DNA from: Cyanodermella asteris
Lineage: Eukaryota > Ascomycota > Lecanoromycetes > Ostropales > Stictidaceae
Assembly (NCBI GenBank): GCA_900618795.1
Contig: UYJD01000004.1
Location: forward strand, 686,560-750,559
Reading direction: 5' to 3'
DNA length: 64,000 nt
The position numbers were made by a program, and so were the translations under genes. Numbering within the stretch: the stretch's first letter is position 1; each line of letters starts with the position of its first letter. Below are positions 4,590-10,395 of the stretch, piece by piece. Below the pieces are notes generated by a model. It was not told where the DNA came from and searched no databases. It saw only the letters and a list, made by a program, of their open reading frames with translations.

Positions 4590-7500
4590 ATGGACCGCCC
4601 TTCCACGCCGCCAGAGTACTCGGGCCCGCCGCCGTACTTTGATGCGCCGAATGATGGAACGCCGTTGGGGACACCAAACAATGGCTTTTCTATGCGCCTC
4701 CTAACTTCAGTGGATGATATGGACAGACCGTATGTATCTTAATCTTCTCATGCAAGACTCGCAAAAGCAATGTTGCCACGACGCAAACTTCTCCGTGTGC
4801 GTGTTATTGAGCCCAAAGAGGACTCGTTGGTCGATCCATTTCAACCTCCTGTACTACCTGAGCCCGTAATCTCTCCTCAGAAGAAACGGTCTGAGAGGAC
4901 CAAGATCCGTCGAGTGGAACGGCATAACCTCAATCTTGAGAATGTGAACTCATATATCAATTCTAGTCATTCCCCTACTCGAACAAGCTATCAGCCTCAC
5001 ACTTCGTCGCGACCCTCAACTCCGTCCGTACTCAGCAACGTGCCTTGCATGCCACCACCGGGCGATGCGCCTCCCTACGATCAGTTCAACAGTGGACGTA
5101 TGTCCCCGGCACAGTGGTCGCCTTCACGAGCTGGGTCGAGCGCATCCAAAAGACCGGCGTCACGCATTCAGTACGAGCGTGCAGACCTCAATGGCAGTCC
5201 ACGACCGGGGACACCATCATCGCAGTATGGCGGAAGCCCGCGACGACCACTGCCTCCTGCGCCACTGTTTTCAATGCCCGTATCGGAAGACACAATGGAA
5301 AAAGATATGACAGACGAGACCACGATACCTATCAGTCCGATGGAAGATTATGATCCCTTCGGCCCGCCTACAGACCCTCGAAGTACTCTCCACTCCAAAG
5401 ACTCATTCCAGTCCGAGTCAACATATCAGGAATATGTCGATGAGAAGGAAACGAGCTATGGGCCTGCACCAAAAGGCCGACATGCGCGGCGAGGAGCTCG
5501 TCAACCACAAATGTCCAAGAAAGAGGTTGCTTTGATCAACGGTGAGCTCATTCTGGAGTGCAAAATCCCTACCATCTTGCAAAGTTTCCTTCCGAGAAAA
5601 GATGGAAGCGAGTTCACACACATGCGATACACAGCTGTAACCTGTCAGCCGGACGACTTCACCCTGAATGGGTACAAGCTTCGACAGGAAATCGTCCATC
5701 CGCCCCGCGAGACTGAACTTTTCATCTGCGTCACCATGTACAACGAGAACGAGATCGATTTCACAAGAACAATGCACGGCGTCATGCGAAACATATCTCA
5801 TTTCTGCTCGCGTTCCAAGTCACGAACGTGGGGAAAGGATGGCTGGACAAAGATCGTCGTATGCATCGTTTCTGATGGACGAGCCAAAGTACATCCTAGG
5901 ACCCTTGATGCGCTGGCCGCAATGGGTGTTTACCAGGACGGCATAGCCAAGAACATGGTCAATCAGAAGGAGGTGCAGGCACATGTATACGAGTATACAA
6001 CTCAGGTCTCACTGGACGCGGACTTGAAATTCAAGGGTGCTGAGAAGGGCATTGTCCCTTGCCAAATGATTTTCTGTTTGAAGGAAAAGAACGCGAAGAA
6101 GTTGAATTCTCACCGTTGGTTCTTCAACGCTTTTGGCAAGGCGTTACAGCCCAATGTCTGCATTCTGCTAGATGTGGGTACAAAGCCTGGCCCAACATCT
6201 TTGTATCATCTGTGGAAAGCCTTCGATAACGACTCAAATGTGGCAGGAGCCTGTGGTGAGATCAAGGCCGGCAAGGGCAAGCACTGGCTTGGTCTACTCA
6301 ACCCGCTGGTGGCGTCGCAGAACTTCGAATACAAGATGTCGAACATCTTGGACAAGCCGATCGAGTCCGTATTCGGCTACATTACGGTCTTGCCAGGTGC
6401 ATTGAGTGCATACAGATACTATGCATTGCAGAACGACACGACCGGACATGGTCCACTCAGCCAGTACTTCAAGGGTGAAGCCCTGCATGGTTCCAATGCC
6501 GATGTGTTCACAGCGAATATGTATCTTGCAGAAGATCGTATCTTGTGTTGGGAGTTGGTCGCCAAGCGAGACGAGAGATGGGTGCTCAAATACGTCAAGC
6601 AAGCAACAGGAGAAACTGACGTTCCTGGTAAGAATGGCCAAGCCTCAGAAACTAGACACCGATATGCTGACTGATCCAGATGCCGTTCCCGAATTTATTT
6701 CGCAACGACGAAGATGGCTGAACGGTGCCTTCTTCGCCGCCGTCTATTCACTCGTTCACTGCCGGCAGATTTGGAAGACAGATCACACCATTGCTCGCAA
6801 AATCCTCCTCCACATCGAATTCGTCTACCAATTCGTCCAGCTCTGCTTCACATGGTTCTCGCTCGCCAACTTCTACCTCACCTTCTACTTCATGGCCGGT
6901 TCCCTCGCTGACCCAAAAGTCGACCCTTTCGGACACAACATCGGGCTCTACATCTACACTTTCCTCCGCTATGCCGTCGTCCTCCTCATTTGCGTACAGT
7001 TTATCCTCTCCATGGGTAATCGACCGCAAGGTGCCAAGAAGATGTTCTTCTCGAGCATGATTGTGTATGCAGTGGTCATGACCTACACGGTATTCTGCGC
7101 CTTGTACGTTGTCATCAAGTCATTACTGGAAAATTCTGGCGGACTGACGGACAATACGTTGTTCATGAACATCATTGTCTCTACATGCTCAACTGTCGGA
7201 CTTTACTTCCTGATGTCATTCATTTACCTGGATCCTTGGCACATGTTCACGTCTTCCGCGCAATATTTCGCACTCCTGCCATCATATATCTGCACCCTAC
7301 AGATTTACGCCTTCTGCAATACTCACGATATCTCGTGGGGTACCAAAGGTGACAACGTCACAAAGACCGATCTGGGAGCAGCTGTGGGTACCCAAGGAGC
7401 AGTCACTCTGGAGATGCCATCCGAACAGCTGGACATTGATTCAGGCTACGATGAGGCTCTGCGTAATCTTCGCGATCGTCTTGAGGTTCCTTCTGCGCCG

Positions 7501-7914: not shown

Positions 7915-8140
7915 AGGCGTTCTTGAGGTTTGCTTGAATATTTTCGGCACGAGAGATGTGTATGGATAATGTCACGAGATAAGCGCGAGGAAGAGAAGTG
8001 TTGATGCAAAACTTCTCCAATCAATGGAGCTGAATGATTTGGATCAGTCAACGAGCGCAGCTGTCCGCGCGATACTGTGACGTAGATTCATCAGTGCACA
8101 TGTCCGACATTGCGGTGCTCGCCATCAATGCTGTGTCTCC

Positions 8141-8649
8141 TCATTCGCAGAAGGATGTACTCTCGTTCTTGATGCGCCACAGATATTCTTTCAGATACTC
8201 GTGCATCTCACTCGGGAAGTCTTCTGCTTCCAGCACTGAACGTCCATCACGTGTGGCCGTGGAAACCATGTCTGGTCATGCATCAGCTCTCGATGCATCA
8301 ATGACTCGTTAAGACTAGACTTACTCTCGACCAAGTCGGCAATGAAAGATTCGCTGATCATTCGCAGTACGTCAACAGCCTGAGGCGATATATTGACCTT
8401 GATGTCAAGTTCCAAGAACAGCAATTCGACGATGCGATCGAAGGCACTCTCCGAGAACAAGGTCGTATCATCACTTTCATCCAGCTGCGGTTCGTGTCCT
8501 GTGTTGAGCGATGCATGTTCTGCGTTGGATAATTCGACTGCCGCACTTCCAGAGGACTCGTGCTCGTTCGTCACGTTCGTTGACATGGCACTCTGATCGA
8601 GGACGACGACCGGTGCTGCTTTCGTGGGAGTGCGCTTGATTCGAGCCAT
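8141..8649 (-). CDS. Small divergent histone-H3-like histone-fold protein
   Basis: Two exons, 8649-8325 and 8271-8141, give 151 aa. The intron (8272-8324, 53 nt) has donor GTAAGT, branch GCTGAT and acceptor CCAG. The protein starts MARIKRTPTKAAP, recalling the H3 tail MARTKQTA. An acidic/Ser-rich linker (about 20-65) replaces the usual alpha-N region. Residues 69-127 then align without a gap to the H3 fold: AFDRIVELL with PFQRLVREI, ISPQAV with FQSSAI, VLRMISESFIADLVE with ALQESVEAYLVSLFE, and GRSVLEAEDF with KRVTIQKKDI. By eye about 11 of 59 positions are identical to yeast H3 (recalled sequence), so it is not a canonical nucleosomal H3. It could be a variant histone, a kinetochore or TAF-like histone-fold protein, or a domesticated duplicate. 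It lies tail to tail with the chitin synthase. Without the splice the protein ends in unrelated sequence, which supports the intron. Confidence 0.7.
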
Positions 8650-9810
8650 ACTGAGCAATTTTTATCAGCATCGGAGCGGTCACAAACGTTTCATTGGCAG
8701 ATGCACTGACTCGGTTTTGTTACGTGCAACGGTTGCGAATCGCGAATCAGTGGTGGTGGATACGAAGCTGAATTTCGCTCAAAGTGGCTGATGTCGTGGC
8801 TAATGGTTGTTTACACCTTGGTCGACGAAGGAAATTGTCAAAGTAAAGATTGTATGCTGTGAAGGGGAAGCCTTAGGTTGAGAGCCGTGCTAGGTCAAGG
8901 GTCTCGTGCGTGAAAGTGAATTGGCCTCCATCACCAGCAACTCACTTGCATGGCAACGGGTCTGGTTGCCCTCCACAACCAGGGTGAACGGGTAGCCTGC
9001 CTAGTCACCCAGGTACATAGCATTAACAGGTATGCAGCCTGTGTATGCGGGTGTGCCATATTGCTGACAGCCTCGTCGAAGCTTGTAGCGCACGCGTGGT
9101 GTGAGATTTTTGATTGAACCTCTTGCCAGACTTTTTCCCCCAAGAAAAACAGTCGGAAGCATTCACGTTCCTCTTTTAATCGATTCATATAACATCCTGG
9201 GGAAGCAGATCTAACGCCTTGGTGCGATCATTCTGACCACGCACGTGAGTGAAAGTACAATGTCTTGTTGGCCAGAGACTGGTGTGGATACTGGGGTGGT
9301 CGGAATATTGACGATGATGTCGGGCCATATGACTTTGCTCTGGCGCGAGGGTGCGTGAACAAGAATATAGGTAATATTCGCTGATGCGGCCTTTTAGATG
9401 AGAGCTCCAACTGATCTGACCAGCTTGTGGGCCGTGGTGTTGTCGCAAGCTTTCGCCGATGCTCACAGGTGTCGTTAGTGTTCCAATATCAATTTACGTT
9501 AACCTCGGCAGACAGCACCCACCCTCAGCATCTGTATCAAAGATATGGTGTACCAGCGCCAATGGCAGAACCCTGTGATTGGGAATCAGCATCGTCGTTT
9601 GCAATGCTAAATATCACTTTATTCTCTCCAATATCTACTCGTAGCTCTAGCTATATACGGTCTCAATCGCAAGTTGAGTGAGCGGTGGGCAAGACAACCT
9701 TCCATCTCGTGATACCCCAGGAGATACCGACCAAGGCATCCAACCTCCCAACGTCGTATATACACCTTGTCTGCTCCAACCTCGATCCTTCAAGACATTC
9801 AAAGTCCACA
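8650..9810. other. Intergenic between divergent genes
   Basis: Only short unrecognised frames. It should hold the promoters of the H3-like gene (-) and the thioesterase (+). A TATATA stretch sits near 9757, about 50 bases before the thioesterase ATG; its role is not shown. Confidence 0.35.
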
Positions 9811-10395
9811 ATGCCGGAGCCACGAAACCACGTCGAAGACTTCCACGCCCTCCCCTGGGCCGCCGCCCTCCTCGACTCGCCCTCCTACAAACCCATGAGC
9901 GACCGACTTCCACCGCCCCCGGACTCTCAGAACGTGCCCAACCTCCTCTGGGCCAGCACCCTCCCAGGCCCCTTGAGGCTCCGCGCCTGGCAATGGTTCG
10001 TCTCCACCCCTTCCTCCTCGACCACGTTCCCGGCCCCGAGTGCCACCGGTCGGCCCCCGTATCCCGAAGCCCTCATGATGGTCTCGCTCTCACACGAACT
10101 GAACGGCTACAAGGGCTTGCTGCACGGTGGCATGTTCGGGGTCCTGATCGACCAGATCGGCGGAATCTGTGGGCGTGCGACGCTGACCGAGGACTTTATG
10201 ACTGCGGAACTCAAGATTGGGTTCAAGAAGGCGATTCCGGTGCCGAGTGTGGTGTTATGTAGAGCCAGGGCGAGTCGGGTCGAAGGGAGGAAGATGTGGA
10301 TTACGGCGAGTCTCGAGGACGGGACGGGTGGGATTTACTGTGTGGCCGAGACGTTCTGGATCATTACGGGGAAGGGCAATGGGCCCAAGATATGA
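9811..10395 (+). CDS. HotDog-fold thioesterase-superfamily protein (PaaI/4HBT-like)
   Basis: A 194-aa protein. The ATG at 9811 is the first in this frame; the frame is open upstream but has no ATG. The diagnostic stretch is YKGLLHGGMFGVLIDQIGG at about residues 97-115, the HGG...D pattern of the long helix of PaaI/4HBT hot-dog domains, which hydrolyse acyl-CoA thioesters. The following strands (TAELKIGFKKAIPVPSVV, WITASLEDG, CVAETFWII) match the hot-dog sheet. The N-terminal 70 residues are Pro-rich. There is no clear targeting signal, so location and substrate are unknown. It is convergent with the acyltransferase gene, with 239 bases between them. Confidence 0.85.
   Translation: MPEPRNHVEDFHALPWAAALLDSPSYKPMSDRLPPPPDSQNVPNLLWASTLPGPLRLRAWQWFVSTPSSSTTFPAPSATGRPPYPEALMMVSLSHELNGYKGLLHGGMFGVLIDQIGGICGRATLTEDFMTAELKIGFKKAIPVPSVVLCRARASRVEGRKMWITASLEDGTGGIYCVAETFWIITGKGNGPKI

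Follow-up and report, generated by a model that had tools for sequence, protein, structure and literature searches.

A spliced, single-copy gene of Cyanodermella asteris encodes a small acidic protein with a probable, divergent histone fold

Histone-fold proteins are a well-catalogued set. They include small acidic members of the TAF13, TAF6 and NC2-beta type, as well as the histones that build the nucleosome. Divergent histone-fold genes with unknown roles have been described in filamentous ascomycetes. The H3-like (H3L) genes of Dothideomycetes are carried by hAT transposons, are present in multiple copies and are derived from H3 (PMC3538342, PMC6710886), while H4E, an ascomycete variant of H4 reported in most Pezizomycotina, has a conserved H4 fold and no detectable phenotype (PMC10878826). 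The gene described here fits neither of these accounts, since H3L genes are multi-copy and clearly H3-derived and H4E retains the H4 fold, whereas this gene is found once and belongs with neither by sequence match. A literature search that covered titles and the openings of abstracts, with most subscription journals outside its scope, showed no described family of acidic fungal histone-fold proteins among the papers listed, which were in several cases only part of those matched.

We analysed a stretch of 64,000 nucleotides from Cyanodermella asteris (the window), in which the minus strand from 8649 to 8141 reads as a two-exon gene with an intron of 53 nt. Its product of 151 amino acids begins with MARIKRTPTK. 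The features of the gene and of the predicted protein, with the evidence used to place them, are as follows.

8325..8649, minus strand: exon 1, residues 1-108 and the first base of codon 109 (translation, coding score)
8272..8324, minus strand: intron, 53 nt, GTAAGT...CAG, with a branch-like CTGAT site whose A lies 11 nt before exon 2
8141..8271, minus strand: exon 2, the rest of codon 109 up to the stop (translation, coding score)
8602..8649, minus strand: basic N-terminus, residues 1-16, charge +3.5, resembling an H3 tail by chance
8470..8601, minus strand: acidic linker, residues 17-60, charge -9.0
8398..8451, minus strand: predicted histone-fold helix 1, residues 67-84 (helix 12-29 of the exon-1 piece model; H3 alignment)
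8329..8385, minus strand: predicted histone-fold helix 2, exon-1 part, residues 89-107 (model helix 34-52; hhalign over residues 81-132)
8216..8248, minus strand: predicted loop 2 region, residues 117-127, DGRSVLEAEDF (gap-free histone-fold alignment over the splice junction)
8165..8212, minus strand: predicted helix 3, residues 129-144 (helix 20-35 of the exon-2 piece model)

The region 8100-8649 was scanned for six strong donor hexamers and contained a single site, the donor of this intron. Three acceptors lie 45-150 nt from the donor; the one listed above yields the 151-residue product, and the remaining two give products of 139 and 135 residues. Codon statistics were trained on 14 long open frames of the window, which are not curated genes. 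With these, exon 1 scored 0.266 bits per codon in its frame, a value matched by none of 745 wrong-frame windows taken from the window's long frames, and exon 2 scored 0.194 in the spliced frame as against at most 0.041 in the remaining five frames. The change of frame at the intron is backed by these scores and by the response of a histone-fold profile, which rose from 6.7 bits for the gene's own unspliced frame to 14.6 bits for the spliced protein, and the unspliced product was rejected on this basis. By these computations the gene is real and spliced, with codon statistics favouring precisely the two frames that the intron joins. The coordinates, the strand and the intron at 8324-8272 given by an earlier sequence-only reading were correct, as judged from the translation, the donor and acceptor scan and the codon scores.

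The profile combines 18 histone-fold domains that this genome encodes, and the spliced protein matched it with E=0.005. Neither the 531 open frames of the window with at least 60 amino acids nor 3000 shuffles reached its score, and the highest-scoring of these frames was the unspliced exon-1 frame of the gene itself, so that splicing more than doubles the profile score. When any single one of the five groups in the profile was dropped, the score still exceeded that of every one of the 531 frames and of no fewer than 2999 of the 3000 shuffles. Comparison by hhalign with a 15-member version of the profile gave a probability of 78.5% (P 1.7e-5), with residues 81-132 aligned without gaps, and the alignment thus crosses the splice junction. 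As controls, one shuffle obtained 0.1%, and CENP-X, a genuine histone fold that this version does not include, obtained 2.8%.

Matches to single families were weak. The full protein gave E-values of 0.11 for Histone, 0.12 for TAF12 and 0.2 for TAF13 in Pfam, and histone-fold families made up five of the six weak matches of the fold region (TAF12 0.043, TAF13 0.076, CENP-T 0.1, Bromo_TP 0.1, SCAF11-like 0.17 and Histone 0.23). The cut-off of Pfam Histone (PF00125), 26.4 bits, was not reached by scores of 13.2 and 12.2 bits, nor were those of TAF12 (14.8 against 27 bits), TAF13 (13.5 against 27), CENP-T (13.1 against 28.1) and Bromo_TP (13.1 against 24.6). Ten control sequences (five segment-wise shuffles, four full shuffles and one reversal) produced no histone-fold match, three of them matching one unrelated family each. 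Matches to their own Pfam family were strong for each of six known histone-fold domains from this genome, and five of the six also gave weaker matches across families; a histone-fold member that has no Pfam family would hence be expected to give only weak matches. The archaeal histone family of NCBIfam was matched at 0.11, far under its cut-off. A search of 177,635 PDB sequences returned the archaeal histone HmvA (8bdk) as the best match, aligned without gaps from loop 1 through helix 2 and loop 2 to helix 3, although at E-values of only 0.34 and 0.15; weaker matches were a chain named 'Histone H3' (8ua7; 1 and 0.93), the histone-fold protein 1f1e, troponin C and calmodulin. None of these single-family matches was significant, the best values being 0.043 in Pfam, 0.11 in NCBIfam and 0.15 in the PDB.

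The two exons were modelled separately with AlphaFold2. The exon-1 piece showed helices at residues 67-84 and 89-107 (mean pLDDT 69.9), and the exon-2 piece a helix at residues 129-144 (mean pLDDT 79.0). Residues 113-116 and 119-122 of the isolated exon-2 piece were modelled as two short strands, where the end of helix 2 leading into loop 2 was expected, and a Foldseek search with the exon-1 half model returned three matches, with no histone among them. Both the strands in the isolated piece and the Foldseek search are weak tests, the fold being cut in two. The acidic linker of residues 17-60 is probably flexible.

The modelled strands and the negative Foldseek search, together with the non-significant single matches and the EF-hand proteins that accompany histones among the PDB matches, are what one would see if the protein were a short helical orphan with a chance resemblance to histones and no histone fold. 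We regard this as very unlikely, since the profile, hhalign and the shuffle controls all indicate a histone fold, in an alignment that runs without gaps over the splice junction. The C-terminal 80 residues or so are probably a histone fold, and this fold is fairly well-supported by the sequence comparisons. Judged in the same way, the assignment holds at the level of the histone-fold superfamily, and no subfamily can be assigned. The earlier description of a divergent, spliced histone-fold protein was thus borne out.

The same description had called the gene H3-like in particular, on account of an alignment that follows the H3 core without gaps. When the protein was aligned locally with the H3 of this genome, the alignment did run uninterrupted from F70 to D126, and its score was reached by 5 of 1000 shuffles; identity in this register was 11/58. 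Pairwise comparison with 19 own-genome domains, labelled according to our reading of their sequences, placed TAF13 (the row SPT3/TAF13b) first with a z of 4.86 (2 of 1000 shuffles as high), followed by H3 at 3.77 (5), CENP-A at 3.42 (5), CENP-T at 3.29 (8) and DPB3 at 3.26 (9). A twentieth row, a fragment of HmvA, is biased by its selection. The H3-core alignment is therefore real, though TAF13 aligns better and CENP-A, CENP-T and DPB3 do about equally well.

Profiles built from single groups gave a different order. The H3 and CENP-A profile, which contains only two sequences, came last among the five with 2.8-3.8 bits, scores that 71 and 32 of 3000 shuffles reached; the TAF13/SPT3/CENP-X profile gave 5.2-6.4 bits, and the highest scores, 9.7-11.0 bits, came from the H4/TAF6/CENP-S/T/W profile. 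Removing the H4/TAF6/CENP group did not lower the score of the full profile, and removing H3 and CENP-A lowered it from 14.6 to 10.9 bits.

The protein also differs from H3 in its charge and at the DNA-contact positions. The positions at which H3 contacts DNA, which we take to be R63, R69, R72, R83, K115, R116 and T118, are kept in two of seven cases (R69 and R116) and replaced in the other five, according to the H3 alignment. Among 17 domains compared, the fold region has the lowest charge, -8.4; NC2-beta (-6.2) and TAF6 (-5.4) are its neighbours, and H3 (+1.9) and H4 (+9.9) are far off. An acidic linker had been proposed to stand in place of the alpha-N region of H3, and residues 17-60 agree with this. 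The N-terminus does begin MARIKRTPTK and is identical to the H3 tail at 5 of the 9 positions after Met. However, about two such starts are expected per 11,000 proteins, if one assumes a proteome of that size and 25% Ala at position 2. A match at the chance level of the proteome is little evidence for H3; for the same reason we rejected the idea that the N-terminus is a histone mimic.

Canonical H3 was rejected on the Pfam score below the PF00125 cut-off, the two of seven DNA contacts, the missing alpha-N and the chance-level tail, and CENP-A was rejected because a clear two-exon CENP-A gene lies on contig C6. An H3 variant that has diverged strongly yet continues to pair with H4, in specialised nucleosomes or in another H4-containing particle, would account for the rank of H3 as second among 19 domains, the drop of the profile score on removal of H3 and CENP-A, and the look of the N-terminus. 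It is nevertheless quite unlikely, given the weakest group profile, the low identity, the lost contacts and alpha-N, the negative charge and the expected frequency of such tails. Of the claim of a divergent, H3-like protein, the spliced histone fold was upheld and the particular likeness to H3 was not; the gap-free core and the retained R69 and R116 are features that it has in common with H3. On the whole the protein seems closer to those histone relatives that are transcription factors than to H3 itself.

We then considered the other histone-fold genes of the genome, identified by our own reading of search matches. The genome also has H3, CENP-A, two H4 genes, H2A, H2A.Z, H2B, TAF6, NF-Y, NC2 (with an NC2-beta-like gene), DPB-like genes, CENP-T, CENP-X, CENP-S, TAF9, TAF10, TAF12, TAF13 and SPT3. 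CENP-X, CENP-S, CENP-T, TAF9, TAF10, TAF12 and TAF13 were each rejected as the identity of the protein because each has its own gene elsewhere. The Pfam profile of CENP-W (PF15510) had no match over its cut-off in the genome, which made the histone-fold protein a candidate for CENP-W. An approximate fungal CENP-W consensus, used as a query, led to a CENP-W-like gene of several short exons on contig C9 (1049401-1049706), which is basic and ends in LRRFKG. CENP-W is recognised by a short basic fold with an FKG end, and since this gene has these features and the 151-residue protein is acidic, the identity of the latter with CENP-W was rejected. A role at the centromere, one of the earlier suggestions, became less likely because CENP-A, CENP-T, CENP-W, CENP-S and CENP-X all have separate genes. 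A PF00125 search of the genome gave ten matches that included the two canonical H4 genes, with the H4E variant not among them; since H4E genes are split into many short exons, an exon-wise search could overlook them.

The weak Pfam matches to TAF12, TAF13 and Bromo_TP could also come from a protein that belongs to a known histone-fold family but has diverged past detection by profiles, for example a TAF11-type, Bromo_TP-type or other subunit of SAGA or TFIID. Among subunits of this kind the inventory covered TAF6, TAF9, TAF10, TAF12, TAF13 and SPT3, and TAF3, TAF4, TAF8, TAF11, SPT7 and ADA1 leave room for such an assignment. It is unlikely, however, since the six that were covered have separate genes, and the protein is small and falls under every Pfam cut-off. 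The separate genes for the usual histone-fold set make the protein look like an addition rather than a replacement.

The reading that we prefer, with a probability of roughly one half, is that the protein is an acidic histone-fold subunit which acts outside the nucleosome and, in the manner of TAFs and NC2, has a second histone-fold protein as its partner. It would be a small acidic protein with a short basic N-terminus, an acidic linker acting as the disordered arm of a TAF- or NC2-like subunit, and one C-terminal histone fold. As a rule, histone folds pair and thereby cover their hydrophobic faces, with an exception reported in PMC12678787, and a partner is inferred from this general behaviour. 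The helices would pair with those of the partner in the usual handshake, and the resulting pair would be a module of a nuclear complex instead of wrapping DNA in a nucleosome, much as with the transcription-type subunits TAF6, TAF13 and NC2-beta. The acidity, the lost DNA contacts and the absent alpha-N disfavour a nucleosomal role and favour a subunit of this type.

Computation supports the gene model, the coding character, the histone fold, the acidity, the lack of a second copy and the separate genes for those members of the usual set that were tested, and from these a partner, a nuclear location and a role as a cofactor of transcription or chromatin may be inferred. The proposed role as an acidic cofactor rests on the charge and on the first rank of TAF13 in a single pairwise comparison, whereas the group profiles favour the mixed H4/TAF6/CENP group. 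TAF13, TAF6 and NC2-beta resemble the protein in size and acidity, and TAF13 was the best pairwise match of 19; they differ from it in that no family cut-off was reached and in that separate TAF13, TAF6 and NC2-beta-like genes exist in the genome. A protein outside the Pfam families, beside separate genes for five kinetochore histone-fold proteins and several of TFIID type, would be an extra part of the chromatin or transcription machinery. It is possible, if doubtful, that it is the first representative of a family of acidic histone-fold proteins in fungi that has yet to be described, in which case it might be an added, lineage-specific subunit that alters a complex by joining a known histone-fold partner (H4, a TAF or a CENP). 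Should orthologues fall into a known family, the finding would reduce to an improvement of annotation.

No second copy of the gene was found at E<=10 in the assembly (28.5 Mb, 25 contigs), and the gene is single-copy as far as this search shows. A pattern search recovered no relatives, with 64 stretches from genome_contigs and 8 from viral_contigs, collections not meant for fungi, and a PHROGs search gave no family. H3-like copies borne by hAT transposons, as in Pyrenophora tritici-repentis and in relatives of Cercospora and Pseudocercospora, are a precedent from Dothideomycetes (PMC3538342, PMC6710886). Such an origin is extremely improbable here: besides the single copy and the distance from H3, no inverted repeats flank the gene within 7915-9810, where one pair of 71% identity sits entirely upstream, and the dinucleotide ratios show no RIP-like rise (TpA/ApT 0.31 at the gene and 0.58 for the window).

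The gene is convergent with a chitin synthase gene, which has its Pfam match within 4770-6674 and whose frame continuing to 7914 had no Pfam match when searched alone, and is divergent from a 4HBT thioesterase gene that starts at 9811. On the minus strand at 8650-8675 of the window, CTGAT and TTGCTCAG immediately precede the start codon and resemble the 3' end of an intron, and the 5' untranslated region may therefore contain one.
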